Shown in pieces: positions 15,518-32,515 of a stretch of 41,211 nucleotides of DNA. The notes beneath the pieces were generated by a model. The model worked only from the letters and a program-made list of their open reading frames with translations, was not told the DNA's origin and searched no databases. The position numbers and the translations under genes were made by a program. The DNA lies in IMG/VR virus record IMGVR_UViG_3300008220_000016, positions 1 to 41,211 of that record; one strand, 5' to 3'. Each line of letters opens with the position of its first letter. The stretch's first letter is position 1. The DNA comes from a virus.

Positions 15518-16996
15518 CTAGACTCCGGTAATGTTGTACTGCAATGCGGTGTGGGTCGCTGAACTTCGAGTTCCGCTTCTCTCCTGCAAGGCAATCCTAA
15601 AGCTGACATACATTGTTGTCTGGCCCTTACCAGGTTCTCTGTCCGTTTCCATTGTAATCTGTCGCCGGAAACCTGTCCGCCATTGGCTCGTATTGAGCGT
15701 AAGCAATCGTCCTGTATCAGCTGCGTTCCCAGCACTTGTAATTTTGCCATCGGCGTCAGCGATTCTCATTTGTTCGCTGTGGAGGTACGGCTTGCCGTAC
15801 ACGTTTAGAATTTCACCGGTGCTAAGAGTTGCACGAGCGCCAGCGACATCAACGGTTTCAAATTCAGCAATCGACAGGGAGCGAATAGCAGTCCTGACAT
15901 CGCTTATGAAAACCACGTCGCCTCTGCGCCTGGGTGCAGCGTACTTGTCGAGTTTTGCCATGATTTCGTTGAACATGTCAGCCGAAACTCCGGCATTGTG
16001 GTTGTTTGATTGGCTTGTGTTGTCCACCAGGGGAAGATGGATTATGCCATCCCATCCCAGTAGCCATTGCGCCTTGCCAGCCGTTGAGGTGCTGATTGTT
16101 GCGCCATCTGCATTGATGTTGTTGGTCGCAGTTTGGTCAGCGTTCAAAAGAACGTCATCAATAACCTCGGCAGCGTTCCGCACCAGGTTTCGCCGGAGTT
16201 CTGGAACTAAGGCGATAATGGCGTCCTCATTCAACTCGTCGGAGAAAGGCACACCAGTTTTCAGCCCTTGTGCTGTCAACGTTATTTTAGAGGTTGAAGG
16301 GTCAGTTGTGAGCGACTGAACATTTTCGCTGATTGGATACCAGTTCGTGTCGCCGAACTGAGTCGGGATGTCGAATGGGTTGCTTGGCATAGGAACTTGT
16401 TGCAACACTGGGAGAATAACGGTGTCCAGGTTGACGTCCATCCATAGCGTAGCCGCTTCGATTGTCGGCACTAATTCGTCGCCAGAGCCTGATGTTGTAG
16501 AGTCAAGCGCTTTGCCGTGGGCTTCCATCATTCCAGCCCTCCAGCCAGCAGCTGCCGACCGGAAGTTCTGCGCCCCAGCCACGCCAGGGTGCATGATATC
16601 ACGCCGCTTGATAGCATCTTCTTCCCAGGCCATGAGTTTATCCACAGTGACGCTGTCGGATAAATCTTTTTTAGACCCAGCCAACATATCACGCATGCCG
16701 CCACTCATCTGGATTCCCCTAGCTTCTCGGCCCTCCATAATGGTGCTGAGAATTTTCAGGTCTAACGAGTCAAACCCAGCGACCCTTCCTGTGGGTACTC
16801 GGAACTGTCCGCCAGGGTTGGAATGATTCAACCTTTCTCGCCGGAGTTCCTTCATCGCCGTTTCGACATTTTCAAGGATGCCAGCCATCCGGTGTTGCTC
16901 CTCTTTGAGAGGTTCAACCCCATTAGTGACTTTGTCCTCGACGTAGGATTTCATTCCCACGATTTCTTGTAACAAGGCATCAATTTCAGTTGCCAT
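15518..16996 (-). CDS. HK97-fold major capsid protein, 492 aa
   Basis: The N-terminal 60 residues form a charged coiled coil (delta domain) expected to act as an internal scaffold and be cut off by the protease encoded upstream. The rest fits the HK97 fold: LVPTIEAATLW early in the capsid domain, FSDELNEDA at an E-loop-like position, a VFISDVRTAIRSL stretch and a C-terminal LTLNTSQWRTGFRRQ strand. TAAGGAGG lies 6 bases before the ATG, fitting very high expression. It follows the protease gene by 10 bases. Confidence 0.9.
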   Translation of the reverse strand: MATEIDALLQEIVGMKSYVEDKVTNGVEPLKEEQHRMAGILENVETAMKELRRERLNHSNPGGQFRVPTGRVAGFDSLDLKILSTIMEGREARGIQMSGGMRDMLAGSKKDLSDSVTVDKLMAWEEDAIKRRDIMHPGVAGAQNFRSAAAGWRAGMMEAHGKALDSTTSGSGDELVPTIEAATLWMDVNLDTVILPVLQQVPMPSNPFDIPTQFGDTNWYPISENVQSLTTDPSTSKITLTAQGLKTGVPFSDELNEDAIIALVPELRRNLVRNAAEVIDDVLLNADQTATNNINADGATISTSTAGKAQWLLGWDGIIHLPLVDNTSQSNNHNAGVSADMFNEIMAKLDKYAAPRRRGDVVFISDVRTAIRSLSIAEFETVDVAGARATLSTGEILNVYGKPYLHSEQMRIADADGKITSAGNAADTGRLLTLNTSQWRTGFRRQITMETDREPGKGQTTMYVSFRIALQERSGTRSSATHTALQYNITGV

Positions 16997-17006
16997 AATG
17001 GCCTCC

Positions 17007-18065
17007 TTATTTCGAATATATTCCCGTAATAGCTTCTCGCAAGCGCTTCATTTGGTCGTCTGTTATCTTCCCATCAACTTCCAAATCTAATGTCCTGTCC
17101 TCTTTTGCTTCTGCGATTGGTTCGTCAGTAAGCAATGATTCCAAAACTTTTTTGGCTTCCGCTAGCGAACTCATATCCGCCTTAGAAAGCACTCGGACAA
17201 TGGTGTCCGTTTCTAAACCTTTGGACATGGCTTCGGGTGCTACCTCTTCGCCATCGCCATCCTCAGCTTCTTCACCTGGGGTGGCTTCGTCCTCAGATTC
17301 TTCCGCCTCTTCCGCAGCGGTTTCCTCTACGGCAATTTCTTCAACTACTTCTTCGGCCACCGCTTCTTCGGCAAGATCTTCCCTGTGTTCCTTTTCTAGC
17401 AATGGGGTACTCGCTAACATCAAACTATACTCCTCTCCTTTTCTTGCTAAATTTCCTACCGGTATTTCGCCCAGAATGTACACCTGGTTCGGATTACCCA
17501 TTTCATCAAGTGCTTTTCTGAGGGCTGCCGGATGTGCTGGTATTGAAACCGCACTTATTTCCAACAATTCTTGTTCCAGAAATTCAAAACTTCCAGCCAT
17601 GCCTTTGCTATTCCGTTCTTGAACGTTCAAGGCCCGAAACCCAACGGATTCCGCTCGCATAATCCTACGTTCAAATTTGCCATGTATCTCTGCCCCCAGG
17701 GGAGACTCGTCATCCCACTGAACCGTATTCAGCAACTGCCTACCATCAACCCAAACCTTTGGCACAATCCCGATTGGAGGGATGTTGTAATTGTGCTGGA
17801 ACATAAACACTGGATTACGCTTAAATTGTTTTAGGTTCCAGCCACCCACTCGGATAACATCGCCCATTCTATCTTCGGATTCTTCTGAGGCGACAAACAC
17901 CTGGGGAGATTGCATGTCTGTGGATGATTGAGGCGCTTTGGGGAGAGCATATCCTGTTGACTTGTAAATTACTGGAGCGTCCGCTCGTCCTTCTGTGTAG
18001 TCTCGTATTGAGGTCGCTTCATTTTCTCGGAGTCGTTTTTCTAAGTCCATTACATCAATTTTCAT
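17007..18065 (-). CDS. HK97 prohead protease with long acidic C-terminal region, 352 aa
   Basis: The catalytic His is in FMFQHNYN near residue 91 and the Ser in LLEISAVSIPAHP near 171, the pair typical of HK97-type assembly proteases. It would cleave the capsid delta domain after prohead assembly. Residues about 225-285 are almost wholly Glu, Ala and Val, then Asp and Gly, with little hydrophobic content, like a fused scaffold segment. I start at ATG 18065 after a GTAGGTG box; an in-frame GTG lies two codons upstream. This is the first gene of the head-tail operon. Confidence 0.88.
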   Translation of the reverse strand: MKIDVMDLEKRLRENEATSIRDYTEGRADAPVIYKSTGYALPKAPQSSTDMQSPQVFVASEESEDRMGDVIRVGGWNLKQFKRNPVFMFQHNYNIPPIGIVPKVWVDGRQLLNTVQWDDESPLGAEIHGKFERRIMRAESVGFRALNVQERNSKGMAGSFEFLEQELLEISAVSIPAHPAALRKALDEMGNPNQVYILGEIPVGNLARKGEEYSLMLASTPLLEKEHREDLAEEAVAEEVVEEIAVEETAAEEAEESEDEATPGEEAEDGDGEEVAPEAMSKGLETDTIVRVLSKADMSSLAEAKKVLESLLTDEPIAEAKEDRTLDLEVDGKITDDQMKRLREAITGIYSK

Positions 18066-18078
18066 ACGCACCTACTCT

Positions 18079-20490: not shown

Positions 20491-21024
20491 ATGGTAAACT
20501 TGGGGATGGAAAAAAAGCCCACCAGGGCAGTCTTTTTAGACAGGGATGGAGTTATCCTTCCGGATAAAGGCCATTTACTGACCGTGGATGCGATGACAGT
20601 AACCAGGAGAGTAGCGACTTGTTTGAAGGAGTTACGAGAAGCCGGCTATTTGCTCATTGTTGTCACAAATCAATCCGCTATCGGGTATGGGTGGCTGACA
20701 TTCGGAACCTTGAACGCCATCCACGCCAAAATGCAAAAAGAACTCCAGCGAGGTGGCGCTTACATCGATGCGATATACACATGCCCCCACACGGCCCAGG
20801 ATGGATGCCTCTGCCGGAAACCTAAGCCTGGTTTGTTCAAACAAGCTATCGTCGAATATAATATTGATGCCTCTCGTTCCTGGATGATTGGCGACAGGCA
20901 CAGCGATATTGCAGCTGGTCATAACATTGGCGCCTGGAGTCTACTTGTTCAATCCCCAGACGATTTAGAAAAAGCTGTGAAATCCATACTTGCTATCTCA
21001 GACATTTTGGCAGCCAAAATATGA
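20491..21024 (+). CDS. gmhB: D-glycero-D-manno-heptose 1,7-bisphosphate 7-phosphatase (HAD family), 177 aa
   Basis: The enzyme removes the 7-phosphate from heptose 1,7-bisphosphate in nucleotide-heptose synthesis. FLDRDG at residues 15-20 carries the two HAD catalytic aspartates, VVTNQSAIGYG is the second motif, and GDRHSD (134-139) binds magnesium. The zinc site CPH...CLC (98-108) and RKPKPG are specific to the GmhB group. ATG 20491 has a GGGA box; ATG 20506 is an alternative. It is the only rightward gene in the cassette. It overlaps the convergent gmhA end by 76 bases. Confidence 0.88.
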   Translation: MVNLGMEKKPTRAVFLDRDGVILPDKGHLLTVDAMTVTRRVATCLKELREAGYLLIVVTNQSAIGYGWLTFGTLNAIHAKMQKELQRGGAYIDAIYTCPHTAQDGCLCRKPKPGLFKQAIVEYNIDASRSWMIGDRHSDIAAGHNIGAWSLLVQSPDDLEKAVKSILAISDILAAKI

Positions 21025-21512
21025 ACGCATACTGAATGGGCATCCTCTATGGCCCCATAATCATTAGAATTCAAAACAACAGCGGCATTACACCTCACAG
21101 CTGACTTTCCTCCGCCAAACCCAAGCAAACCGAATGTAATCATTTCCGACGATTGAGCCGTGTCAACAGCGTCCAGCACATTGTCGCTATTTCCGCTTCC
21201 GCTGATGACAAACAAAATGTCCCCAGGTCGTGCCACCTGGTTCAAGATGGCTGACGCCGCTGTACCATAAGACATATCGTTCGCCCTGGCGGAATATAAG
21301 GATGATTCAGCCATCAAGTCGTGGGCAGCTACCTTGTTGTCCACCAGGTGAAGCACCAGGTGGCTCGCATTTGCGTGGCTTCCGCCATTGCCCAAAACCC
21401 ACACATGGCCCTTGAATCTCATAAGGTGGAAAGCAACAGCGTCAAGAACCAGTTCGTCAATGTCAGTTAGGGCTTCATTTACTTTTTTGAGATACTTTGA
21501 CACCATTGTCAT
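20949..21512 (-). CDS. gmhA: phosphoheptose (sedoheptulose 7-phosphate) isomerase, SIS domain, 187 aa
   Basis: The predicted reaction is sedoheptulose 7-phosphate to D-glycero-D-manno-heptose 7-phosphate, the committed step to heptose sugars. GNGGSHANAS (41-50) and ISGSGNS (103-109) are the SIS phosphate-binding loops. A C-terminal AIEDAHSVCVHIL segment matches the region of the catalytic His in GmhA. Length is normal (about 190). I use ATG 21512, inside the end of the aminotransferase gene; an upstream TTG is less likely. It is the last gene of the leftward cassette. Confidence 0.85.
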   Translation of the reverse strand: MTMVSKYLKKVNEALTDIDELVLDAVAFHLMRFKGHVWVLGNGGSHANASHLVLHLVDNKVAAHDLMAESSLYSARANDMSYGTAASAILNQVARPGDILFVISGSGNSDNVLDAVDTAQSSEMITFGLLGFGGGKSAVRCNAAVVLNSNDYGAIEDAHSVCVHILAAKMSEIASMDFTAFSKSSGD

Positions 21513-22617
21513 AGAAGTACCGTATCCTTTCCGCCACGTACTCAATTTGTTCTCGTTTCAAATACTGATGTATTGGCAAACTGATGATACGTTTAGACTG
21601 CCATTCCACATTCGGCAAGTCATCCCATCTTCCGCCCAGGTATGCGTACCCTGGCTGCAAGTGGATAGGAATAGGATAGTGAACCTTTGTTTCAATCCCC
21701 TGTTGCGCCAGCCAGGTAACTAACTCATCCCTCCGCCCAACGGTTATGACGTAAGTGTGGTACACCTGTTTGATATCTTCGTTCCGTGGTGGAATGATGA
21801 CACCGGTGGCTCCGTCCAGAAGCTGGTCGTATAGTGCTGCGTGTTCTCGACGTTTTTCGGTCAGCCAATCCAGTTCTTTCAGCACGTGGGTTCCGACAAG
21901 CGCCTGGATAGCGTGAAGCCGTTCATTCCGACCTGGGCGAACAACGGTATCACGGTCTTTCAGTCCATGATTCCGCAGCAAACGTATTTCGTTAGCAAAC
22001 GATTCATCGTTGGTCGTAACGACTCCGCCATCACCCCAAACGTTGATATTCTTCAAAGGGTGCAAACTAAAACAAGCCGCCAAGCCCAAAGCGGCCACGC
22101 TCACTCCCTTATATTCCGCTCCAATCGCTTGTGCAGCATCAAACACCGAACCGTCGTAGTAATCCCTGGGCAAGTTTGTGACGACGTTTCCGGTCAAATG
22201 AACTGGGAGCAAGTGCATCGTGCTATCCCACTCTTTCCGGTTGGGGTTTCGTTTATCGATTATTGCATCCCAGGAGAACAAGTAATCTTCATTCACATCC
22301 ACCAGGTACGGCTCTGCGCCAATGGCTACAACCGCCCCAGCCGTGGCAATGAAAGAATTGGCTGGTACTGCGACTCGTTCCCCAGGGCGGACTCCGCTCG
22401 CTATCAAAGCCAGTTCCAGCGCTGCGGTTCCACTATTTACCCCTACGGCATACTGAACCCTGAGTTTCTCTGCAAACGCTTCCTCAAACCTATCCACCCA
22501 GGGGCCGAGAGTCCAGAACCCACGAGCCGATTCGTTCTGGATATCATGTAGAATCGATTTGGAAATGTCTGTTTCTAAAGCAAATTGTTCCGGTAGGTAG
22601 CCATAGCTTACATTCAT
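21475..22617 (-). CDS. DegT/DnrJ/EryC1-type sugar aminotransferase, 380 aa
   Basis: This pyridoxal-phosphate enzyme family adds an amino group to keto nucleotide sugars. NSGTAALELAL (61-71) is the cofactor phosphate loop, Asp160 lies in FDAAQAIGA, and Lys189 in SLHPLKN is the Schiff-base lysine, followed by WGDGGVV. All key residues are present. With the SDR upstream it predicts an amino sugar. Some DegT homologues are dehydratases, but the lysine favours aminotransfer. The start overlaps the preceding stop by one base. Confidence 0.88.
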   Translation of the reverse strand: MNVSYGYLPEQFALETDISKSILHDIQNESARGFWTLGPWVDRFEEAFAEKLRVQYAVGVNSGTAALELALIASGVRPGERVAVPANSFIATAGAVVAIGAEPYLVDVNEDYLFSWDAIIDKRNPNRKEWDSTMHLLPVHLTGNVVTNLPRDYYDGSVFDAAQAIGAEYKGVSVAALGLAACFSLHPLKNINVWGDGGVVTTNDESFANEIRLLRNHGLKDRDTVVRPGRNERLHAIQALVGTHVLKELDWLTEKRREHAALYDQLLDGATGVIIPPRNEDIKQVYHTYVITVGRRDELVTWLAQQGIETKVHYPIPIHLQPGYAYLGGRWDDLPNVEWQSKRIISLPIHQYLKREQIEYVAERIRYFYDNGVKVSQKSK

Positions 22618-22937
22618 TACTGTGGCCTGACTTCCATCTTCATGCCGGCATCAATCCTGGTGCTTCGCATTTTTTCTGCCATCGTCATCAACTCTGAACC
22701 GGCTATTAGCAGTTGAGATTCCGTAATAAGCGGCTCTTGGGTTTCCTTGTTGACCGTCATATTCATGATGAACCTGGTATCGTTTGGTTCAAAAGTTACA
22801 GACACGGATGGCTTCGGATTGGCCTTCTCTTTCAAGTCAGCTAACTCACGTTCCTTAGTTTCGAGTTCTCGCCGTAATTCTTCTTGACTTGGTGGGGTGC
22901 TTGTACTGGTTTGCATTGTGCTAATTTGTTCAACCAT
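22617..22937 (-). CDS. hypothetical coiled-coil protein within the sugar operon, 106 aa
   Basis: The ATG at 22937 overlaps the SDR stop by 8 bases and has GGAG upstream. After a Ser/Thr-rich start there is a coiled coil (EELRRELETKERELADLKEKA), then a beta-rich part (SVSVTFEPNDTRFIMNMTV). No enzyme motif is seen. Tight coupling to the epimerase and aminotransferase suggests a job linked to the cassette, perhaps complex formation. Confidence 0.5.
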   Translation of the reverse strand: MVEQISTMQTSTSTPPSQEELRRELETKERELADLKEKANPKPSVSVTFEPNDTRFIMNMTVNKETQEPLITESQLLIAGSELMTMAEKMRSTRIDAGMKMEVRPQ

Positions 22938-23934
22938 TGACGATTTTCTCCATTCTTTTTGTATTGTAGTAAATAGGATTGTTCGGGTCATCAATGTGAC
23001 CCTGTTGAAACCACCTGAAGTTGGCGTTTATCGCTTCAGTAACGCTCCGCTTCGGTTGCCAGGCCAACGTATCCTTCGCCCTGGCGACGGACATCTGGTA
23101 CTGGCGAGTATCCTTTATGTTTGTGTTCACCTCCGTTTCTACTTTCCTACCCCATTCTTTGGCTGCTTCCTCGACTAATGTCGCTATCTCTAAAGCCGTA
23201 TGATTTCCGGACGTAGCGTTGAAGGCCCGTCCGTAAATGTCCTTGGATTCGGCTTGCATCAAAGCGCCGTAGAATTCGACCGCATCCGTAACGTGCAAAT
23301 TGCTACGGATTTGCGTGCCATCATGAACTGTAATAAGTCCGTCAAACCAGGCTTGCTTGCTAAACACGTTTACGATAGTGTCCAGGCGCATACGAGGCGC
23401 AGGGCCACACAACGTTGCAGAACGCATAGCCACCGTATCAAACCCTACATCGCTCGCATCCAACACCAATTTTTCCGCATCCAGTTTCGATTGGGCGTAC
23501 GCCGTTTCCGGAGCGCAAACGTATCCCTCCGTCGCAGGTTCAAGAGTTGAGCCGTACACTGACGACGAGGACGCATAAATAAACCGCTTCACCTGGTTCT
23601 TCCGAGCAAGGGCGACCAGGGCTTCGGTTGCCTGGACGTTGACATCTTGTGCTAGTGCCTGGTTCATGTCGACCAGCTGGTCAGTCACAATTCCAGCCAA
23701 ATGGATAACGACGTCCTGGTTTTCCAAGGCAGTCTCCACCAGGTCTGCATCCCGAATATCGCCGTTTATAAACTCCGTGTTCTCGGTATCGACAATCGAG
23801 TTGCCAAAGTGCATCGAACAAAAAACACGGACGTAATTGTTTTTCGCCAGGTAAGGCACTAAAGCGCTTCCAACGTAACCGGTTCCGCCGGTAACAAGTA
23901 TTCGTTGCCCTGTAAAGGTTTGTTCTTCTGTCAT
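22930..23934 (-). CDS. NAD(P)-dependent sugar epimerase/dehydratase (extended SDR), 334 aa
   Basis: GGTGYVGS (16-23) is the Rossmann nucleotide loop. Ser residues of ASSSSVYG (121-128) and Tyr146/Lys150 of YAQSK are the catalytic set. The family oxidises nucleotide sugars to keto forms for epimerisation, dehydration or reduction; which of these applies here cannot be told. The ATG at 23934 overlaps the previous stop (ATGA) and has GGAG upstream, so I prefer it to ATG 23955. It should supply the keto sugar used by the aminotransferase or the thiamine enzyme. Confidence 0.85.
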   Translation of the reverse strand: MTEEQTFTGQRILVTGGTGYVGSALVPYLAKNNYVRVFCSMHFGNSIVDTENTEFINGDIRDADLVETALENQDVVIHLAGIVTDQLVDMNQALAQDVNVQATEALVALARKNQVKRFIYASSSSVYGSTLEPATEGYVCAPETAYAQSKLDAEKLVLDASDVGFDTVAMRSATLCGPAPRMRLDTIVNVFSKQAWFDGLITVHDGTQIRSNLHVTDAVEFYGALMQAESKDIYGRAFNATSGNHTALEIATLVEEAAKEWGRKVETEVNTNIKDTRQYQMSVARAKDTLAWQPKRSVTEAINANFRWFQQGHIDDPNNPIYYNTKRMEKIVNG

Positions 23935-25337
23935 AATATTAGATGCTCCATCCATTTCATGATTTCTTGTTTCGTAATTGGACGACTGTTTCCGACGATT
24001 CCCACCTGTATTGCCCCTGCAATATTCCCAATAAGGCCAACGACAGACCCAGGTGCTTTGACGGCAGCCAGGGGTGCAGACCAGGACAAAAATGCGTCGC
24101 CGGCTCCCATCCTGTCCACGGCATGGTTGCTGGCAACTGGAACAATAACCGGTACAAAATCCACTGCCGACATTAGCGTCACTCCTTTGTGCCCCTGGGT
24201 GACTGCAATCATGCTCAAACCCATTCGGATTATTTCCTGTTCCATCAGGAGATAGAGCGACTTACTGGCTTCCCTCCAGGCGAGCCGTAGCTCCTGTTCG
24301 TCCACGACAACATAATCAGCGCTACTCCATTTATGCAAGCTGTTGAAGCCCTGGTTCATCGCATTATTCTGAACCGTCAGCGCTAAGAATTTCGCTTGCC
24401 TGGAAATAGCGTTAGCCTGGCTTGCATCGAAAGCACCGTGCCCGAAATCCGCTACGATGACGTTTTTACCCTTGAAGGATTGTGGCGGAATGATTTCATG
24501 GTGTTCCCCATCCCAGGTGGTTGACTCAAAAACCTTATGAATGAACGTTTTATCAACGAACCTCGTTTTGGTAATATCCTTCAGCCCACCCAGGTGCGTC
24601 GCCTGGTGCGTTCCGGCTGCTTTCATATGGCTGGAAAGCGCATGAATACCGCCGTCATATCGTTCCCTTCCTAATTCTTTCCACGCCACTATCGCTTCTT
24701 TTGCAGATCTTCCCATCGGTTCCACCCAAACGTATTCGTCAGTAATCGCTTCCCCAGCCAAAACAAACTGTTGCGTGAGCGCTTTGAGTAAATAATTTGT
24801 GGTATCTGCTACTTCTTTCCGGACGTTGGCCTGGCTGAACCATTCCAGAAAGTCCTGTGGATATTCCTTATTGATGAATTGCGCCAACCTGGTGCTACTG
24901 TCCAGCATGGACGTGTAGACTACGTTTCCGCCCCACCGGTAAAGTTCCGCAAATTCCAACGCAAAAGCACCGGTCTGGCCACGGTATTCTTCGCCCTTGA
25001 GATAATACCTGGGACGCAGTGTTTCTATAACTTTACAGGCGTTCGCTGTATCGTTCAGGACTACACCGTCCACATCCGCTTGCTGCGCAACCAGGGCTGC
25101 ACGTTTTGCCTGGCCGTTTATCGGCCTGGTTGGGCCTTTTCCTACATGAATATCCGGAGTGATAGACACGACAACATATGGAGCTAATTCTTTCGCCCTG
25201 GCGAACTGTGCCAGGTGGCCTTCATGTAAAATGTCGAATACACCGTGGCAGAGAGCGATTCCGTGGTCGATGAAATTGCTTTTTTCATTGACCCATTTAG
25301 CCAGGTGAATCGGATTATTCCATATCACGCTTTGCAT
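23931..25337 (-). CDS. nucleotidyltransferase-PfkB kinase fusion, HldE-like with reversed domain order, 468 aa
   Basis: Residues 31-41 (HGVFDILHEGH) form the nucleotidyltransferase signature, followed by KGEEYRG near 118. The C-terminal 250 residues are a ribokinase/PfkB-type domain with GAGDAF near 411-416. E. coli HldE, which phosphorylates heptose 7-phosphate at C1 and later makes ADP-heptose, has kinase first and nucleotidyltransferase second; here the order is the opposite. A middle linker (about 180-230) is extra. With GmhA and GmhB it can complete an NDP-heptose route. ATG 25337 has AGGGGA before it. Confidence 0.8.
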   Translation of the reverse strand: MQSVIWNNPIHLAKWVNEKSNFIDHGIALCHGVFDILHEGHLAQFARAKELAPYVVVSITPDIHVGKGPTRPINGQAKRAALVAQQADVDGVVLNDTANACKVIETLRPRYYLKGEEYRGQTGAFALEFAELYRWGGNVVYTSMLDSSTRLAQFINKEYPQDFLEWFSQANVRKEVADTTNYLLKALTQQFVLAGEAITDEYVWVEPMGRSAKEAIVAWKELGRERYDGGIHALSSHMKAAGTHQATHLGGLKDITKTRFVDKTFIHKVFESTTWDGEHHEIIPPQSFKGKNVIVADFGHGAFDASQANAISRQAKFLALTVQNNAMNQGFNSLHKWSSADYVVVDEQELRLAWREASKSLYLLMEQEIIRMGLSMIAVTQGHKGVTLMSAVDFVPVIVPVASNHAVDRMGAGDAFLSWSAPLAAVKAPGSVVGLIGNIAGAIQVGIVGNSRPITKQEIMKWMEHLIL

Positions 25338-25344
25338 AATTCCC

Positions 25345-26493
25345 CTAGACAAAATTGATGTGCATTGGCTGTTTCCCAGCTGGTGCGCCGATGCGCCTAT
25401 CGTGATTCATGTGCCCATCCAATGCTTCATTGACTTTGTGCTGCAAGCACAAACTTCCGCACATTGTTTGAGCGTTGAAATCATCTGAGCCTAAATAACT
25501 CATAACTTCCCAGTACCGCTCGGACTGCCATATGTCATACCAGGATTGCTCCACGATATTTCCGATATGAAATTTGGCATACTTGTCGTTGAATAACATT
25601 CCGCAAGGAGCAACCAGGCCCGAACCGCTAATCTGTATCATGAACGGCGGGCCATAACAGCGCTTGTACGACCTAGTTCCGGCGTCGCCTATTTTAGACC
25701 ACTTGATGACGACATCGTAATCGTCAGTCGATATCTTCTCGGCTTCTGCCAACAGTGGGTACAAGGCGGAATACGCCTGGTAGTCCACGCCCAGGTTCCC
25801 ATCTTCATCGTCGCTACAATGCTTTATGATGGTGTAATCGACACCCAGGGTCTTACCGTGATGCGCCAGGGGTAGCACCTGGTCAATATCCTGGGGCATG
25901 AGAACCATTTGCAGCCCAATCGTTACGCCCAGGTTATCTCGTCTCTTGATTTTTGCTGCGGTTGCTGCGTTGTTGGAAACACGGTAAAAATCTTCTTCTT
26001 TGACGCCCATTATTTCGGCATAGCGCTTTGGTTCCCCACCGCTAAAGTTGAAACGCAAATATGTGAGGTGTGGAAGGATTTGTTCTAGGACTTCCTCGCC
26101 CAGCAGCCAGCCGTTTGTTCCGACAGCCATGCTAATTCCAGCTGCATCGCCCCATTGAATTGTTTTGATAAATGCTTTACTTAAGGTCGATTCGCCATCG
26201 CTAACCAGGCTGATGGCCCTGACGCCCATTCTTTCGCAGTCATCAATGAACCGGCGCATTGTATCCTCGGTAATCACGGAACGGTCATTTTCCTGTAACA
26301 TTGCATAACAAAATCCACAAGCGTAATTACACGCCCTGGTAAGAGCCATGTCGATGGTTATTGGGGCGATACGTTCCCCACGTTCCCAGGCTTCTACTCG
26401 GTCTGGATGCCAGGCTATTTTTGTGCCGTCCAGAACCATTTGAGTGTGGTCGTCAGCCGTAGACAAATCTTGGTGTTGGTTGTGCCTAGCCAT
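25345..26493 (-). CDS. radical SAM enzyme with SPASM-like C-terminus, 382 aa
   Basis: CNYACGFC (Cys 55, 59, 62) is the CX3CX2C site for the SAM-cleaving 4Fe-4S cluster. Later cysteines in RCYGPPF, VAPCGML and the MCGSLC region (about 280-350), with an IGNI...WYDIW segment between, match the SPASM auxiliary-cluster pattern. Enzymes of this kind carry out radical steps on peptides, sugars or alcohols. In a sugar operon a dehydration, epimerisation or deoxygenation is most likely, but the substrate is unknown. It overlaps the small gene upstream by 8 bases. Confidence 0.85.
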   Translation of the reverse strand: MARHNQHQDLSTADDHTQMVLDGTKIAWHPDRVEAWERGERIAPITIDMALTRACNYACGFCYAMLQENDRSVITEDTMRRFIDDCERMGVRAISLVSDGESTLSKAFIKTIQWGDAAGISMAVGTNGWLLGEEVLEQILPHLTYLRFNFSGGEPKRYAEIMGVKEEDFYRVSNNAATAAKIKRRDNLGVTIGLQMVLMPQDIDQVLPLAHHGKTLGVDYTIIKHCSDDEDGNLGVDYQAYSALYPLLAEAEKISTDDYDVVIKWSKIGDAGTRSYKRCYGPPFMIQISGSGLVAPCGMLFNDKYAKFHIGNIVEQSWYDIWQSERYWEVMSYLGSDDFNAQTMCGSLCLQHKVNEALDGHMNHDRRIGAPAGKQPMHINFV

Positions 26494-26710
26494 TCGTTTT
26501 TACTCCTCGCAAACGGTTGCGTAAAGCGTTGATATCACCTTTGGGTTCAAGGAACACTTCGGCCTTTAGCCAACCTGCTTTTCTTAGCATTTTTTCCAGG
26601 TTGAGCAATAAGTGACCTCTTTCAGCTGTTGGCATCGGGTCGGTTTTCACAAACACCTGGTCGCCAACCGTTTTTACAAAATAGATTCCATCCGGCATCA
26701 AGGGTATCAT
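26486..26710 (-). CDS. small protein coupled to the radical SAM gene, 74 aa
   Basis: The ATG at 26710 overlaps the upstream stop (TGATG), and the 3' end overlaps the radical SAM start. The product has a beta-hairpin-like start (GIYFVKTVGDQVFVKTD), a helix (LLLNLEKMLRKAGW) and a basic end. It could be an accessory for the radical SAM enzyme or the thiamine enzyme. It does not look like a cysteine-rich or glycine-rich peptide precursor. No family is recognised. Confidence 0.55.
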   Translation of the reverse strand: MIPLMPDGIYFVKTVGDQVFVKTDPMPTAERGHLLLNLEKMLRKAGWLKAEVFLEPKGDINALRNRLRGVKTNG

Positions 26711-27699
26711 CAAAACGGCCCGTCCTTTGGATGAGCTACACCTGGGGTGGACGGTTCCTCTCCCTGGGCTTGTTCCAACCCAAGCAACTTGCAAGCCGCC
26801 TGTATGACGTCATAATGAGACGGATACCAAATCGGTTCCAGCGCTTGCGACGTGGGTAGTGGCCAGGGTGGAGGAGAAACGATAGTTGTCATAATTTCAC
26901 CTGGTAATTTTTGCAGAAACGCATGGCTTATGTCTATCGCAATACCATTATTCTCTACGTCGACTAAAACGATTTTGTCCGATTCTACATCCAGTCCTTT
27001 CATAATAAACTCAAGGCCCCATAAACTGACCCTGGCTGGTAGGCCCATCTTGTTGAGCAACTTTCCAGCTGCGATTGTTTCTATCGCTGCCCCAGAGATA
27101 CCTACCAAGTCCACAACAGGGTTTTCCGGTTGCTCATAAATGAAATCCTCGTCCTCTTTGTCAAATAGGCTTCTATGCTCCAGGATGACGCTAACTCCTT
27201 CCATTCTGAGCGCCAGGGCTAAACTATCTTTAGCGTCACCTGGGGTAATAGGAGCAAAGGCGTGTACGCCTGGAATCCTGGCTAACATTCCTAAAAATGC
27301 CTGGCTGTGCTGAGGCCCTTGACCCCAGCCCTTTCCAATAATCGCCCGAATAATGATTGTTGGTGTTTCCACCAAACTTGTATGATGTGTTATTTTCCAT
27401 TTCGCTGCGGTGTTGACTAAATGTTCCATCGTCAGCATCAGGAAATCAGCCCTGGCGTGAACTAAGATGGGTTTGTACCCATTCAACGCCATTCCCCAAA
27501 TCGCTCCTGTTAGCATGTTCTCTGACAACGGAGTTTCCCATACCCGACCAGGGAACAAATCGTGCGCTAACTTGGTTGTGCCAAATATTCCTTTTTCGTC
27601 GCAAACGCCCACTCCTAGAACAACGATGTTCGGGTCGTTTTCCATTTCCTGGGCGATAGATTCTGCTATTGCATCTTTGTATTTCATGGTACTGGCCAT
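26710..27699 (-). CDS. thiamine-diphosphate enzyme, E1 beta-type subunit, 329 aa
   Basis: It matches the beta subunit of 2-oxoacid dehydrogenase E1 (pyrimidine-binding plus transketolase C-terminal domains). TPLSE carries the conserved Glu near residue 60 that activates thiamine, and GKGWGQGPQHSQ (122-133) is the E1 beta signature. It pairs with the alpha subunit upstream, overlapping its end by 16 bases. ATG 27699 has a weak GGA box; ATG 27687 (ATGA overlap) is possible. No E2 or E3 gene is present, so a normal dehydrogenase complex is unlikely; carboligation onto a sugar is a reasonable guess. Confidence 0.85.
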   Translation of the reverse strand: MASTMKYKDAIAESIAQEMENDPNIVVLGVGVCDEKGIFGTTKLAHDLFPGRVWETPLSENMLTGAIWGMALNGYKPILVHARADFLMLTMEHLVNTAAKWKITHHTSLVETPTIIIRAIIGKGWGQGPQHSQAFLGMLARIPGVHAFAPITPGDAKDSLALALRMEGVSVILEHRSLFDKEDEDFIYEQPENPVVDLVGISGAAIETIAAGKLLNKMGLPARVSLWGLEFIMKGLDVESDKIVLVDVENNGIAIDISHAFLQKLPGEIMTTIVSPPPWPLPTSQALEPIWYPSHYDVIQAACKLLGLEQAQGEEPSTPGVAHPKDGPF

Positions 27700-28592
27700 T
27701 CTGCTTTTTCCGCCAGGAGAAAAGCGTATTCGATGTCAAGGAAGTTCCGGCTAACAAGATCTTGCCGGTCATCAACCATCCCAAGCGCATTTTCGACCTC
27801 ATCACGTTGCTGGTAGCGCTCCAGGTAGTCATCGCTCCTGTGCCTGGTCAGGCCCAACTCCTCATCCAGTTCTGGCCCGACGTGCGTATACCACCGGTCT
27901 GTTTGGACTCGAATAAATGCTGGTAGATTGTGCAGGGCCGTTTCAGTTGTTTCAAACACTTCAGTTACGGAGTGCGTGATATCATACGCTCGTAATCCGA
28001 GTAACGTAGCCAGGGCTGCCCAATTTCCTGGTTCCCTTTGCCTGTCTGCGATAGGCGTCTGTGTCGCCAGACCATTGTCCTCCATCACGAACAAAATTGG
28101 CAAACCCCACAACCCTGCTATATGCAAGGATTCGTACACTTGGCCGGTTTCCATTGCTGCGTCGCCCATAAATACACAGCTGACATTCGGGCTTCCAGAA
28201 TGCTTCATCGCCATCGCTGCGCCAACCGCAACAGGCACGGCTGAGCCAACAATCGCAGAGGTTCCCATAAACCTCACCCTTTCATCCACCAGGTGCATAG
28301 ACCCACCCCAGCCACCTGCGCATCCTGTGGCTTTGCCGTACAACTCAGCGATAAGCCCATCCAGGCTTCCTCCTTTCGCCAGGTAGTGAGCGTGGCATCG
28401 ATGGTTGGAATACACCTGGGCGTCCTGTGGTAATGCCATTGATACGCCAACTGCTACGGATTCCTGGCCGATGGACAAGTGCGTGGGAGTCCGCATTTTA
28501 CCGTCTTTGTAATGGCTTGCTATCGCTTCTTCCGTAGCCCGAATCAGGTGCATTTGTTGGGCTGCCGTTTCCCAATCGAACTCAGGCATCAT
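27684..28592 (-). CDS. thiamine-diphosphate enzyme, E1 alpha-type subunit, 302 aa
   Basis: The sequence follows the E1 alpha family: THLSIGQESVAVG (37-49), SNHRCHAHYLAKGG (62-75), GGWGGSMHL (93-101) and the thiamine-binding stretch from GDAAMETG (143-150) to EDN (171-173). The usual GDG is GDA here, as in some sugar-cluster homologues. In heterotetrameric E1 enzymes alpha and beta share the active site. The length of 302 is shorter than mitochondrial E1 alpha, with no targeting or regulatory loop. Its start overlaps the stop of the 78-residue gene upstream. Confidence 0.85.
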   Translation of the reverse strand: MMPEFDWETAAQQMHLIRATEEAIASHYKDGKMRTPTHLSIGQESVAVGVSMALPQDAQVYSNHRCHAHYLAKGGSLDGLIAELYGKATGCAGGWGGSMHLVDERVRFMGTSAIVGSAVPVAVGAAMAMKHSGSPNVSCVFMGDAAMETGQVYESLHIAGLWGLPILFVMEDNGLATQTPIADRQREPGNWAALATLLGLRAYDITHSVTEVFETTETALHNLPAFIRVQTDRWYTHVGPELDEELGLTRHRSDDYLERYQQRDEVENALGMVDDRQDLVSRNFLDIEYAFLLAEKAEWPVP

Positions 28593-28825
28593 AGGATAAC
28601 GACCGTTTTGCAGTATTCCAGGACTGCACTACTATCCAGGGTTCCAGCCAGGCGCTGTAACACCTCCCCTGGTGGAACAATAGCCATGTGACGTATTCGG
28701 TTGCGCCGGTCATGTATGACAAGCCCTTCTGCCGGTCGTATCTCGCCGAGCTTTTCGCTCTGGTGTAACTGACCGTCTAAACTGCAACCGCAATAAATAC
28801 TGGTTCCTGTACCTGGGTTGTCCAT
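28589..28825 (-). CDS. small hypothetical protein ahead of the E1 genes, 78 aa
   Basis: ATG 28825 has a very strong AAGGAGG site. The 78-residue product has a YCGCS motif early and a mixed alpha/beta remainder (GEIRPAEGLVIHDRRNR). It is coupled to E1 alpha by TGATG overlap. A structural or regulatory partner for the enzymes downstream is possible; no family is recognised. Confidence 0.5.
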   Translation of the reverse strand: MDNPGTGTSIYCGCSLDGQLHQSEKLGEIRPAEGLVIHDRRNRIRHMAIVPPGEVLQRLAGTLDSSAVLEYCKTVVIL

Positions 28826-28826
28826 T

Positions 28827-29777
28827 TTATCCTCCTTGGTTAGTCCACCGTAATTGACCGTCGGTGATTTGGACAGCTGATTTTGGCTTTACACCCCAAA
28901 CCGCTGCCCTGGCTGCATCCGTGAATGGCAAGTATTCACCATCTAGAACATTCCTTTCGTCGTAGGGAGGAACAGGTTTTCTATCTGGTGGCTTGTTTCG
29001 GTTTTTGTTGATATTATCCCAATGCTCCATCCGGTCTTTTATCGACATTCGGTTAGATGCCAGGGGATAATGTGGCTGGCTGCTTACTTGCAGCTGGATG
29101 TTCGTGTCAACATAGGGCCGATGTCCGTACCGCCAAAGAGTTTGAAAATGATATCCTTCATCGGCCCCAATAGCATCACCCCAGAACCTTGGGCCAACGC
29201 AGTTGAAAACATTTGTCATAAATAACAGCATTGACAAAACCGTCCACCTGGCTGGTTTCAGCCCTGTGTTTTCTTTCAAATCGGTCGGCCCATAGAGCGG
29301 TTTGCCGGTTCCTGGTTCTCTTACCATTGGAGCGACGATTGGCATTCCCCAGGACAAAAGCCGCACCAGGCAATCCTTTTCCGGTAAAACATCGTTGTCC
29401 AAATACAGAAGGTTTTCGTACCCTTCGTTCTGAGCCATGATAATTGCTTCGTTTCGCATCGTGCCCAGGGCGTCATACGGTTCGAAACACCGGTCTTGGA
29501 TTTCGGACAAAGCACAATACACCCCAACCTTGTTGGTGTATTCCAGCATGTCGCAAACCTTCTGCCAACTACCTGGCCCCCAGTGGTAACCCATACCAAC
29601 AACGAGAACCGAGTTTGGGCGGATATGGGGCCAGCGTTTATCGCCAAATCTCATAATAAAGTCTCGCTCTTGGTCTGTGGCATAGGTGCGAGTCTGAATG
29701 TAGCGGTGGGAATCTGTAACAGGTTCCATCGGACGAATCCAAAGACTCGTGCCGTCGTTTTTGTACTTATCGGCCAT
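28827..29777 (-). CDS. GT-A type glycosyltransferase, 316 aa
   Basis: LLYLDNDVLPE (123-133) is a DxD-type metal and nucleotide-sugar site, preceded by a MRNEAIIMAQNEGYENLL helix-strand typical of GT-A folds. Later residues (NVFNCVGPRFWGDAIGADEGYHF) include an acidic segment where the catalytic base often lies. No membrane segment is seen, so it acts in the cytosol or at the inner membrane face. It lies next to the cassette making a heptose-type donor, so it probably transfers that sugar. The acceptor is unknown. Confidence 0.75.
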   Translation of the reverse strand: MADKYKNDGTSLWIRPMEPVTDSHRYIQTRTYATDQERDFIMRFGDKRWPHIRPNSVLVVGMGYHWGPGSWQKVCDMLEYTNKVGVYCALSEIQDRCFEPYDALGTMRNEAIIMAQNEGYENLLYLDNDVLPEKDCLVRLLSWGMPIVAPMVREPGTGKPLYGPTDLKENTGLKPARWTVLSMLLFMTNVFNCVGPRFWGDAIGADEGYHFQTLWRYGHRPYVDTNIQLQVSSQPHYPLASNRMSIKDRMEHWDNINKNRNKPPDRKPVPPYDERNVLDGEYLPFTDAARAAVWGVKPKSAVQITDGQLRWTNQGG

Positions 29778-29981: not shown

Positions 29982-31274
29982 CTAGCTTGTTGCTGGCTCA
30001 GATATGGAAACTTCCACATTATCTTCGATTGTGATGTTAGCTCCTGTGACGTTAGTCGCAACGGTAAATTCTTTCGTGGAGAAACCGTCTCCCATGCCCA
30101 CCTCATTTAATAAAATTTCAAGCGTTCCGATTGTCATTTTTGAAAGCACACAGGGGCCACCTTTCGTCCAAAGATTGCTCAAGGTCAGCTTATCCACCTT
30201 ACCATTTACGCCAGAGGACGGAGCTTGAATCCAAATCCTATCATAAGTGCCGCCTGCGGTTTCGAGTTTTTCTGCTTGGTGATGACCACCGGAAATCGCC
30301 AGCATCCTTGACGTGCCAGGACTAGGCGCAATGCTAATTCCATCGGCCGCATTTCCACGGATTATAATCGTATGAGCCTGAATATCTGATAGTTCTAATT
30401 TCTTGCAACGACTCTTTTCAAAGATTAGATGCCCCACCTCTAGCCGTGTCGCAGTAAACCCACTCGATGCCCCGACCCCACCTATCTCAACAGCGTTCTG
30501 AACGCCGGAAGGCAACGCTGAACCGGTAAAAGCCGTCCCGATACTTACATCCTTGATGGTAATTTCTCGGACAGGAGTCGACCCCAGGTCAATTCTTAAG
30601 GTGTTATATTCTTCCGACCATTCAATAGGGGTATCCAAAATTGGTGCTGCGGCAGAGTAGACCCCTGAGTCGCCCCGACTAAAGGACTTCCCTTCCATCA
30701 CCTCGTTTACAACTACACCTCCACCAACAGCGGAGCCGGCAAATAATATCGTCATGGCCATCTGGGGAGAGAACCCCATCGCACGGAGTAACGAAAAAGG
30801 AGACTTGATAATCTGAAAGGTGGTTTTCCACTTTTGACTTTCCGATTGTAGGTACTCGACTTTCGCCAGGAACCAATCACGAAACCGAATAATACCTTTG
30901 TAGAATGCAACAGGGGAGCGAAACATTTGTTTCGGGGATTTGCGGTATAACCAACGGATTCCTCGCCCTGGGTATCGCAGGGGAATAAGCAACAACCGTC
31001 GCATCAATAACAAGCCGAGTACGATGCCACCGATTGAGACAATAAGCCCATTCATTCCAGTGCTTGAAACAGGATAAACTATATCCTCAACCAAAGGCCC
31101 GCCCAAATTAGCCATCTGGAATAACATCATGCCATAGGTCGTGGCTGCCAGGGCTAGAAGCCCGATTGGCATCAAAAGCAAACCAACGGTAAATTCCAAA
31201 ACCTTGAGAACATTCAGAAGTCTTGACCTGGTGAATAAACCTCTCACATTGAACAATGCTCTCATTCGTTTCAT
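29982..31274 (-). CDS. membrane protein with beta-helix-like C-terminal half, 430 aa
   Basis: Residues about 25-50 and 73-97 are strong membrane segments, and a third hydrophobic stretch lies near 175-192. The linker between is highly basic and aromatic (RGIRWLYRKSPKQMFRSP). From about 220 on the protein is beta-rich with regular short strands (LEVGHLIFEK, LELSDIQAHTIII, KLTLSNLW) like a parallel beta-helix. No known family is recognised. A surface anchor, superinfection-exclusion or lysis-related role is possible. It is directly preceded by two smaller membrane genes. Confidence 0.55.
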   Translation of the reverse strand: MKRMRALFNVRGLFTRSRLLNVLKVLEFTVGLLLMPIGLLALAATTYGMMLFQMANLGGPLVEDIVYPVSSTGMNGLIVSIGGIVLGLLLMRRLLLIPLRYPGRGIRWLYRKSPKQMFRSPVAFYKGIIRFRDWFLAKVEYLQSESQKWKTTFQIIKSPFSLLRAMGFSPQMAMTILFAGSAVGGGVVVNEVMEGKSFSRGDSGVYSAAAPILDTPIEWSEEYNTLRIDLGSTPVREITIKDVSIGTAFTGSALPSGVQNAVEIGGVGASSGFTATRLEVGHLIFEKSRCKKLELSDIQAHTIIIRGNAADGISIAPSPGTSRMLAISGGHHQAEKLETAGGTYDRIWIQAPSSGVNGKVDKLTLSNLWTKGGPCVLSKMTIGTLEILLNEVGMGDGFSTKEFTVATNVTGANITIEDNVEVSISEPATS

Positions 31275-32000: not shown

Positions 32001-32111
32001 CTATTTTACTCTACCCTTCAAGAGGGCATGAATGAGCCTGGCTTCTTTCTTCTTGATGCGTTTGTCTTTTGCGATTGCTTTATCGACTGCTTCCTGATTG
32101 TAAGCGACCAT
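32001..32111 (-). CDS. conserved very small phage protein, 36 aa
   Basis: The ATG at 32111 overlaps the glycosylase stop (TAATG), and GGAGG lies upstream. The 36 residues include AVDKAIAKDK and end EARLIHALLKGRVK. I recall this pattern (AI...KEA..IHALLKGR) from many phages, usually near replication or repair genes; the role is unknown. It ends with TAG at 32003-32001. Confidence 0.65.
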   Translation of the reverse strand: MVAYNQEAVDKAIAKDKRIKKKEARLIHALLKGRVK

Positions 32112-32515
32112 TATGTCCTCCAAACGTAAGGTAAATTATCCGGTACTTCCCAATTGTATAGCCCATAAAACTCAGGTGCTTTTCGTAACAGGTTTGATTT
32201 ATGGGAATCATGAAACGCATCATTACCTATGAACGGTGGCATTTCTACCGGAAACGTTATTGGCAAAGTCTGCATAGTATTTCGATACATCCGAGTATTC
32301 CATTCCATCTGCATCGCAAAATAATACAGGGATAATGCGTTGGCATACCCACGCCACATCTTTACAGCAGGATGATTTACCCATCCACCAGTTGTGCGCT
32401 TGCCAGAAACTATCTGATATATTTGCCATGCTTCAATGCGCTGTTTCCCTAACCGCTTACTATCTAAACACTTTGCAGTTTCGCTGAAGCTTGCATAAGG
32501 TAAAAACGTTTGCAT
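32111..32515 (-). CDS. pyrimidine-dimer DNA glycosylase-like protein (MSMEG_6728 type), 134 aa
   Basis: The start MQTFLPYASFSETAKCLDSK and the following RLGKQRIEAWQI, then NHPAVKMWRGY, match the small MSMEG_6728-type family related to T4 endonuclease V. Such enzymes excise UV-induced pyrimidine dimers, and a phage copy would protect DNA in sunlit environments. It begins after AAGGAG and a short spacer. Activity on dimers is inferred from the family name. Confidence 0.75.
   Translation of the reverse strand: MQTFLPYASFSETAKCLDSKRLGKQRIEAWQIYQIVSGKRTTGGWVNHPAVKMWRGYANALSLYYFAMQMEWNTRMYRNTMQTLPITFPVEMPPFIGNDAFHDSHKSNLLRKAPEFYGLYNWEVPDNLPYVWRT

Follow-up and report, generated by a model that had tools for sequence, protein, structure and literature searches.

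The isomerase, kinase, 7-phosphatase and nucleotidyltransferase functions of the ADP/GDP-heptose pathway (GmhA, HldE, GmhB, HldD) are all represented in the phage locus treated here. To our knowledge, the Campylobacter pathway for capsular heptose includes neither a radical SAM enzyme nor a ThDP branching enzyme. The sugars of yersiniose (YerE) and of the avilamycin and paulomycin octoses (AviB1/B2, Pau11/12) are deoxyhexose- or pentose-based and need a 4,6-dehydratase-type or decarboxylase supply of keto-sugar; these systems have no radical SAM enzyme and are not viral. We know of no virion-glycosylating phage with a complete nucleotide-sugar pathway of its own. In LPS and in antibiotics, keto-sugars are known to be C-branched by enzymes of the YerE-like and E1-type classes (PMC12247030, PMC4753412, PMC4802897), and capsid-glycosylating glycosyltransferases have been proposed in mycobacteriophages (PMC11256854). 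In the records of cyanophages S-SSM7 and S-CAM1 and Caulobacter phage Cr30, the matches were confined to single HldE-NT-like or GmhA-like genes, with neither a ThDP enzyme nor a close radical SAM relative matching there.

Here we analyze 41,211 nucleotides of viral DNA (IMGVR_UViG_3300008220_000016, positions 1 to 41,211; hereafter the window), in which an operon near certainly encodes an activated-sugar pathway. Our main reading, at a probability of roughly one half (about 0.52), is that the operon constitutes a complete pathway for a C-branched, probably aminated heptose, which a glycosyltransferase of the phage attaches to a virion protein. Enzyme families and intact motifs support the original prediction of a phage-borne, probably heptose-derived nucleotide-sugar pathway.

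Operon layout

The module is bordered upstream by a portal-MuF fusion (33505–35604, minus strand; phrog_2662, 4.2e-100) and downstream by a prohead protease (17007–18071) and the major capsid protein (15518–16996), both on the minus strand (together 15518–18071; phrog_617/80, PF04586, phrog_10), the order of the latter two being the same in related phages. All enzymes previously named were found at approximately the predicted positions, but one gene had been overlooked, i.e. that of a 74-aa protein, HypC (26486–26710, minus strand), located between E1β and the radical SAM enzyme. The predicted overlap of genes was seen for most of those on the minus strand, where stop and start overlap. The gmhB-like gene lies on the opposite (plus) strand and converges with the isomerase gene; it is hence not on the operon's transcript.

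Sugar activation

The GmhA-like SIS-domain sugar-phosphate isomerase (20949–21545, minus strand; PF13580 and TIGR00441) has an altered active site. It scores 76 bits against TIGR00441 (cut-off 209), and with Glu65 replaced by His and Gln172 by Glu, while His61, Asp94 and His180 are retained, it falls outside GmhA as defined by Glu65/His180 with His61/Gln172. In all 55 viral members aligned, as in the bacterial cassette members, position 65 holds Asp or His and position 172 holds Glu, with His61 and His180 retained, and the PDB alignments concur (E. coli numbering).

Next in the activation set is a nucleotidyltransferase-PfkB kinase fusion of 473 aa (23931–25352, minus strand; PF01467 and PF00294), whose HxGH and GAGD motifs are retained across 58 homologues. 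Its N-terminus corresponds to positions 341–460 of the HldE model and its C-terminus to the kinase domain, i.e. the HldE and rfaE domain matches occur in swapped order. The expected HldE-like fusion was thus borne out as to its two domains and their intact motifs, but not as to their order, which together with a score of 80 bits (cut-off 521) keeps it out of HldE; it probably works like HldE all the same.

The HAD-IIIA GmhB-like bisphosphate phosphatase (20491–21024, plus strand) scores 154 bits against NF006506 (cut-off 178) and 113 bits against TIGR00213 (cut-off 149.6), and the DRDG motif and the Cys/His residues of the zinc loop are visible in its sequence. Of 80 bacterial loci compared, 7 have GmhB; apart from the present one, none of the viral loci compared (89 viral loci) does.

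Jointly, the SIS, kinase, nucleotidyltransferase and GmhB-like activities fit the formation of an NDP-heptose, and the sugar is probably a heptose. Two observations count against this: the departure of the SIS active site from GmhA, which makes another sugar possible, and, against our main reading as a whole, the near absence of GmhB from related cassettes. These two features, along with the domain swap in the fusion, speak against the plain GmhA-HldE-GmhB route originally proposed. Plain ADP-heptose synthesis was ruled out by the SIS active site, the domain order, an SDR that is not HldD (TIGR02197, 73.6 against a cut-off of 274.6) and the extra enzymes.

Sugar modification

This SDR is extended and of the nucleotide-sugar 4-dehydrogenase/epimerase type (22930–23955, minus strand; PF01370, 6.9e-40), with SSSxVYG and YxxxK motifs in 42 homologues. 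The best PDB sequence match of both the phage protein (over its full length) and the Azospirillum protein is 6VO6, which we take to be the Campylobacter GDP-heptose 4-dehydrogenase Cj1427. The Thr-Asp-Glu triad of dTDP/CDP-sugar 4,6-dehydratases is absent, with an SSSxVYG-type motif throughout the 42 homologues, and this rules out supply of the keto-sugar by a 4,6-dehydratase (LegB/PseB-like). The DegT/DnrJ enzyme (21475–22617, minus strand; PF01041, 2.9e-84) has the fold and the PLP lysine of sugar aminotransferases, K189 being invariant in 83 homologues, and its best PDB matches are the nucleotide-sugar aminotransferases 3UWC, 2OGA and QdtB. Between the SDR and DegT genes, and overlapping both, is a small open frame (22617–22994, minus strand; about 107 aa from the likely ATG start), for which domain searches gave no family match. 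Both SDR and DegT are missing from many viral cassettes, and the final product must therefore vary.

The radical SAM enzyme (382 aa, 25345–26493, minus strand; PF04055 and PF13186) has seven cysteines that are invariant in 29 homologues, namely C55, C59 and C62 of the CxxxCxxC motif and C279, C297, C345 and C349 of SPASM/twitch-type auxiliary clusters. Its AF2 model (pLDDT 87) has DesII as best PDB fold match, with BlsE, BtrN and SuiB also matching, and it is 60–66% identical to bacterial homologues. DesII is a TDP-sugar enzyme. HypC, the putative partner of the radical SAM enzyme, matches the C-terminus of a bacterial protein of ~360 aa (hmmsearch; hhalign probability 98.1) whose gene immediately precedes that of the same radical SAM enzyme. 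It is conserved in related phages and was found in 63 of the 89 viral loci.

Glycosyltransferase and acceptor

The glycosyltransferase (316 aa, 28827–29777, minus strand) had no match in Pfam, NCBIfam or PHROG, and its assignment to the GT-A fold, with a DND motif, is based on the predicted structure. The AF2 model is weak (mean pLDDT 61, core 70–90); it matches the GT-A enzymes ColGalT1, LH3, GalNAc-T2, STIV A197 and the PBCV-1 capsid glycosyltransferase, suggesting a resemblance in fold to protein glycosyltransferases. The stretch RNEA...LDNDV is conserved in six homologues. In related phages this gene adjoins the portal gene, and additional copies are found in L010 and L121.

Placement among head genes recurs. 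In lineage A (the window, L010 and L157) the cassette has the portal gene on one side and the capsid genes on the other, it is found between the head-tail adaptor and the major capsid protein (MCP) in lineage C (L210), and lineage B, to which 27 contigs were assigned, has the order portal-scaffold-GT-cassette-GT-MCP in all nine contigs showing both portal and MCP. Counting against our main reading, cassette genes in L156 and L159 are not flanked by the adaptor and MCP but lie upstream of both, and some contigs of lineage D have the cassette after the capsid gene. Protein glycosyltransferases of GT41/OGT type accompany the cassette in nine loci. Phage glycosyltransferases of GT-A or GT41 type are thus linked to head genes, as would be expected for virion glycosylation, and we infer that a virion protein is the sugar's target.

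The same activated sugar might instead be used on the host surface, in late remodeling of LPS or exopolysaccharide via the host's export machinery, the proposed purpose being to prevent superinfection or attachment to debris. We consider this unlikely, though it deserves serious attention: the bacterial version is found in polysaccharide loci with GT4-type transferases, this exopolysaccharide-locus setting suits host-surface use equally well, and phages with heptose-type genes exist (the cyanophages and Cr30 mentioned above). Against it, no polymerase, flippase or membrane glycosyltransferase was recognized in the window among the families searched, and the head-gene and GT41 linkage points to a protein acceptor. 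Out of the roles originally proposed, virion decoration is favored over host-surface use or shielding because OGT-type transferases are linked to the cassette and because several unrelated lineages have it at their head genes; the suggested decoration of DNA found no support.

ThDP enzymes and C-branching

The ThDP-dependent E1α (27684–28592, minus strand; PF00676, 7.5e-37) is of the alpha-keto-acid dehydrogenase E1 type and scores 200 bits against TIGR03182, which is under the cut-off of that model. Its ThDP motif, GD...E.G...N, is conserved in 48 homologues, and the catalytic Glu60 of E1β (transketolase pyrimidine-binding domain; 26710–27699, minus strand; PF02779, 3.5e-23) is invariant in 49. 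The pair accordingly has the ThDP motif and catalytic Glu of the sugar-branching enzymes termed alpha-KADH2 and, on genomic evidence, shares with them both a nucleotide-sugar cluster and exchangeability with YerE-like enzymes. Near the radical SAM gene, viral loci had E1 in 53 cases, an AHAS-like (acetolactate-synthase/YerE-like) protein in 18, both in none and neither in 16, many of the latter being truncated contigs; the bacterial counts were 47, 7, 1 and 25, respectively. Mutual exclusion gave Fisher p values of ~1e-9 (viral) and 0.006 (bacterial), with independence overstated as the sequences are related. Among PDB entries, the AHAS-like protein is closest to 8RPH, i.e. JanthE, a YerE-like ketone carboligase (PMC12188165). 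Judged by these co-occurrence patterns, E1α/β and AHAS/YerE-like enzymes appear interchangeable in the cassettes, and the product is probably C-branched by a C2 unit.

An improbable alternative is that the ThDP enzyme acts like a transketolase and supplies the ketose phosphate of the isomerase, leaving an unbranched modified heptose as product. Sedoheptulose 7-phosphate (S7P) is a transketolase product, and the split-chain transketolase 6YAK is a weak relative of E1α, but the best E1 matches are 2-oxo-acid dehydrogenase E1 proteins. The alternative is further weakened because E1 is replaced by AHAS/YerE-like enzymes, alpha-keto-acid decarboxylating carboligases that fit such a role poorly.

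Distribution and authenticity

The radical SAM gene was found on more than 80 viral contigs, most of them also with the NT-kinase, the isomerase, HypC and one ThDP enzyme. Comparison of gene neighborhoods over viral contigs, proposed as a check on the original prediction, yielded relatives of the cassette in several unrelated phage lineages. The combination had also been unfamiliar from described phages, and indeed 50,697 GenBank phage records yielded no comparably complete relative; a literature search for the cassette gave no publication. When the fusion and E1α served as single-sequence queries, scans of viral data gave one weak and one good match; alignments had to be used as queries instead. 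Pfam scans for portal and terminase in 33–40 viral records gave few matches. PHROG matches and capsid homology established the viral nature of lineages B and C and of part of lineage D, while for ~44 other contigs viral status is the call of IMG/VR alone. Indications of the host diverge: a relative falls in the bin of a Dehalococcoidia MAG, while the radical SAM phylogeny suggests SAR11 and other marine Alphaproteobacteria.

In bacteria the cassette is widespread in polysaccharide loci, and the phage form is a streamlined version; this wide carriage by bacteria rules out a phage-specific invention.

Phages that glycosylate their DNA exist, but decoration of DNA bases is very improbable here, since the cassette is linked to protein-type glycosyltransferases in related phages and the window encodes three DNA methyltransferases and no recognized base-hypermodification gene; we set it aside for want of recognized supporting genes in the window. 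Mis-assembly of bacterial polysaccharide genes onto a phage contig, or decaying cargo, is scarcely credible despite the resemblance of the cassette proteins to bacterial ones, and contamination or assembly error was ruled out, given the shared arrangement and site of the cassette in three to four related phages, fragments of 99.95–99.98% identity from three other metagenomes that overlap and together span the region from the end of DegT to the capsid genes, a virus-only clade in the radical SAM tree (SH-aLRT 100) and the intactness of all catalytic motifs. The operon is real; chance and artefact are excluded because catalytic motifs are conserved in the operon enzymes (42–83 homologues compared), the arrangement is the same in related phages and near-identical copies occur in other metagenomes.

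Proposed pathway and implications

According to our main reading, whose steps, substrate, order, branch position and acceptor are drawn from enzyme family and genomic context, the SIS isomerase would convert a ketose phosphate, most likely sedoheptulose 7-phosphate, to an aldose phosphate. The kinase domain would phosphorylate C1, a GmhB-type phosphatase, either the phage's or the host's, would remove the distal phosphate, and the nucleotidyltransferase domain would make the NDP-heptose. Oxidation or remodeling by the SDR and by the radical SAM enzyme together with HypC may then yield a keto-sugar, after which E1α/β would decarboxylate pyruvate and attach the two-carbon unit at the ketone to form a branched tertiary alcohol. 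DegT would aminate a ketone that remains, and the GT-A enzyme would transfer the finished sugar, with a head protein as the likeliest acceptor. A product going beyond ADP-heptose, as a keto, amino or branched derivative, was anticipated, and the sequence evidence favors all three.

A broader reading, which we hold tentatively and at less than even odds, is that several unrelated phage lineages independently took up a bacterial cassette for a C-branched (C7+C2) heptose for glycosylation of head proteins, each with the radical SAM enzyme and its small partner, either of two unrelated ThDP enzymes, and its own GT-A or OGT-type transferase. If true, phages go beyond borrowing the sugars of their hosts: they construct a rare one of their own, by C–C bond formation and by radical chemistry that is sensitive to oxygen, and decorate their particles with it, a new means to alter capsid surface, adsorption or recognition by protists. 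Many phages may then coat their particles with a sugar so far undescribed, and an uncharacterized branched sugar would be expected in bacteria common in the sea and in soil (SAR11, Azospirillum, Myxococcota and others). It would also define a radical SAM family with a paired small protein and extend the ThDP sugar-branching enzymes to viruses.

Comparison with known systems

On a plasmid of Azospirillum oryzae (NZ_CP054615, L023), a cassette shares with the phage an SDR, NT-PfkB, SIS, E1α, E1β, DegT, a HypC domain and the radical SAM enzyme, the latter being 66% identical to that of the phage. This cassette and its bacterial relatives differ in having a second SDR, a second DegT and different glycosyltransferases, and the phage HypC equals the C-terminus of their 360-aa protein; no publication on the product of such a cassette was found. 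Compared to the ADP/GDP-heptose pathway, the phage has an SIS protein without Glu65 and Gln172, a swapped fusion and an SDR other than HldD, while E1, DegT and the radical SAM enzyme are added. The closest solved relative of the phage SDR belongs to capsular heptose modification in Campylobacter (6VO6/6VO8), and the two ThDP alternatives of the cassettes are the same as those in yersiniose, avilamycin and paulomycin biosynthesis. Lastly, phage glycosyltransferase genes, with a virion protein as the likely acceptor, are common to the window and to the proposed virion glycosylation of mycobacteriophages.

Gene content of the cassette

Genes for a terminase, a portal-MuF fusion, a prohead protease, an HK97-type capsid protein and a tape measure protein were found in the window, an IMG/VR virus record of 41,211 bases, and the portal-to-protease interval contains the sugar cassette (20491-29777). 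Its minus strand encodes a GT-A protein, the two subunits of a ThDP enzyme (E1α and E1β), a 74-aa protein, a radical SAM/SPASM enzyme, a nucleotidyltransferase–PfkB fusion (NT-kinase), an SDR, a small ORF, a DegT protein and a GmhA-like SIS protein. The operon of the original prediction stands insofar as all the named enzyme genes are there, mostly overlapping (stop/start overlaps occur in most neighboring pairs), but the GmhB-like phosphatase gene lies on the plus strand, convergent with the minus-strand block. The 74-aa gene (26710-26486), situated between E1β and the radical SAM gene, had been overlooked. Catalytic residues typical of the enzyme families are preserved in alignments of 42-83 homologs, the SIS protein being the sole exception.

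Family searches gave no match for the small ORF between SDR and DegT (22617-22994), nor for a protein of 430 residues encoded between portal and glycosyltransferase (29982-31274), in which membrane segments at the N-terminus are followed by a beta-rich, repetitive C-terminus. The window also encodes three DNA methyltransferases (two N4/N6 and one C5, at 804-2069, 36890-37987 and 38464-39687), one with a fused ParB-like domain, and a pyrimidine-dimer DNA glycosylase (32111-32515; PF03013, 2e-19).

Predicted pathway and product

An isomerase, a C1 kinase, a distal phosphatase and a nucleotidyltransferase together fit NDP-heptose synthesis. The SDR lacks the dehydratase triad and, like its Azospirillum counterpart, has as best PDB match 6VO6, which we take to be Campylobacter Cj1427, a GDP-heptose 4-dehydrogenase (the structure search itself returned a generic name), while DegT is nearest to nucleotide-sugar aminotransferases. 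We propose a putative NDP C-branched amino-heptose as the product. The heptose-derived keto, amino or branched sugar originally envisaged is thereby retained as regards enzyme families, which fit NDP-heptose, amination and C2 branching, but the SIS protein is not GmhA. Glu65 of the E. coli enzyme is replaced by His in the window and related phages and by Asp in most other members, and Gln172 by Glu; His61, Asp94 and His180 are retained. This altered pattern extends over 55 of 55 viral and nearly all bacterial members, with PDB alignments in agreement; the protein belongs to a subfamily distinct from GmhA.

Where E1α/β is missing from a contig, the usual finding is a ~590-aa enzyme resembling acetolactate synthase (AHAS-like) near the radical SAM gene. 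E1, AHAS-like, both or neither were found in 53, 18, 0 and 16 viral and in 47, 7, 1 and 25 bacterial cases, respectively, an exclusion whose Fisher p-values (~1e-9 and 0.006) are overstated by kinship of the sequences. Among solved structures, 8RPH comes closest to the AHAS-like protein; it is JanthE, a YerE-like enzyme coupling alpha-keto acids with ketones (PMC12188165). YerE-like decarboxylases, E1-type enzymes and transketolases are the sugar-branching ThDP classes in a review that also recommends viruses as a place to look for them (PMC12247030); YerE makes yersiniose, and AviB1/B2 and Pau11/12 or Plm8/9 are of the E1 type (PMC4753412, PMC4802897). The interchange of E1-type and YerE-like classes within one operon disfavors a transketolase or central-metabolism role, and no other evidence argues as strongly that the ThDP step would be C2 branching of a keto-sugar.

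Seven cysteines of the radical SAM enzyme are invariant among aligned homologs, and its predicted model (pLDDT 87) best matches the fold of DesII, a TDP-sugar enzyme, with weaker matches to BlsE and BtrN. Where the SDR is missing, we infer that the radical SAM enzyme is the only obvious candidate for making the ketone. A profile of a bacterial ~360-aa protein, also a radical SAM neighbor, detects the 74-aa protein and the corresponding proteins of other phages (E 1e-10 to 1e-3), and profile-to-profile comparison (98% probability) equates the phage proteins with the final ~60 residues of that bacterial protein. The small protein (HypC), found in 63 of 89 viral loci, is probably the radical SAM enzyme's dedicated partner. 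One viral radical SAM homolog (L022:7850-8992) has apparently lost the conserved auxiliary-cluster cysteines (VAPAGQFF), and possibly has an altered function.

Distribution among viruses and bacteria

The cassette occupies the equivalent site in a 57 kb phage (G001, IMG 2681813498) and in the viral loci L010 and L121/L157, with 51-63% capsid protein identity to the window, and is missing from more distant capsid relatives. Three other metagenomes yielded overlapping, almost identical pieces of the window virus. In the radical SAM tree, window-type phages form one clade (SH-aLRT 100) neighboring marine alphaproteobacteria, SAR11 among them (88; wider group 96), and a second virus clade (L015, L019, L020) stands apart. 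The cassette is a genuine phage module. Viruses carry it commonly: of 88 viral relatives found with an alignment query, 80 were kept. Among 89 viral loci, NT-kinase was found in 65, E1α and E1β in 56 each and SIS in 54, and the complete order NT-kinase–SIS–E1α–E1β–HypC–radical SAM in 23; because SDR (10) and DegT (9) are scarce, the window cassette is a fuller variant of this viral core.

In two unrelated phage lineages the cassette has as neighbors RNA-binding proteins of the TROVE/Ro60 type that contain a vWA domain (L002:5801-7264, in G001, and L213:14617-15921). G001 also has an apparent intein (CRCVPGETFV...THNCTV) within the MuF part of its portal-MuF gene (L002:10-3228), and a putative nicotinamide phosphoribosyltransferase-type gene, judged by sequence alone (L009:15887-17308).

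Nor is the cassette phage-specific, as radical SAM homologs with 60-66% identity occur in bacteria of many phyla. Within 10 kb, the best 80 of 258 passing bacterial radical SAM loci contained the 360-aa protein (66), NT-kinase (57), SDR (56), DegT (55), E1α/β (48), SIS (34) and GmhB (7), and the Azospirillum oryzae cluster runs into a polysaccharide glycosyltransferase region. What the phages carry is a cut-down form of the bacterial cassette.

Genomic context and likely acceptor

The module is flanked by portal and capsid genes in lineage A (window, L010, L157). The order in lineage B is portal–scaffold–GT–cassette–methyltransferase–GT–capsid, with the cassette between the two ends in 9 of 9 contigs showing both (27 assigned); its capsid protein is ~90% identical within the group and 38% identical to that of Pelagibacter phage HTVC023P, and GenBank relatives have no cassette at that site. 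Lineage C (L210) has terminase–adaptor–cassette–GT41–capsid; the lineage D cassette adjoins a PF05065 capsid, with GT41. In L156 and L159 the cassette genes precede adaptor and capsid instead of lying between them. GT41 is the O-GlcNAc-transferase family, targeting protein Ser/Thr, and TPR-GT41 proteins were found near or among head genes in nine viral loci (e.g. L210:12827-14704, L194:5147-6823 and L220:11398-13233). The nearest folds to the window glycosyltransferase, in a weak model, include protein glycosyltransferases and viral capsid glycosyltransferases. Of the three roles proposed at the outset, virion decoration is thereby the best supported, with a virion protein as the probable acceptor; the host surface is a possible one, and DNA found no support in the window or related cassettes.

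Relation to described phages

As originally suggested, the combination is not known among described phages: in 50,697 GenBank phage records, the best radical SAM identity was 28%, E1α had matches in only two contigs, both Acinetobacter-labelled (31%), and for the NT-kinase the match was limited to the NT domain. No description of the cassette was found in open-licence papers. To our knowledge, the combination in this cassette is new, as are the partner protein and the exchange of ThDP enzymes in viruses; sugar genes in phages, glycosylation of virions and branched sugars have each been described before.
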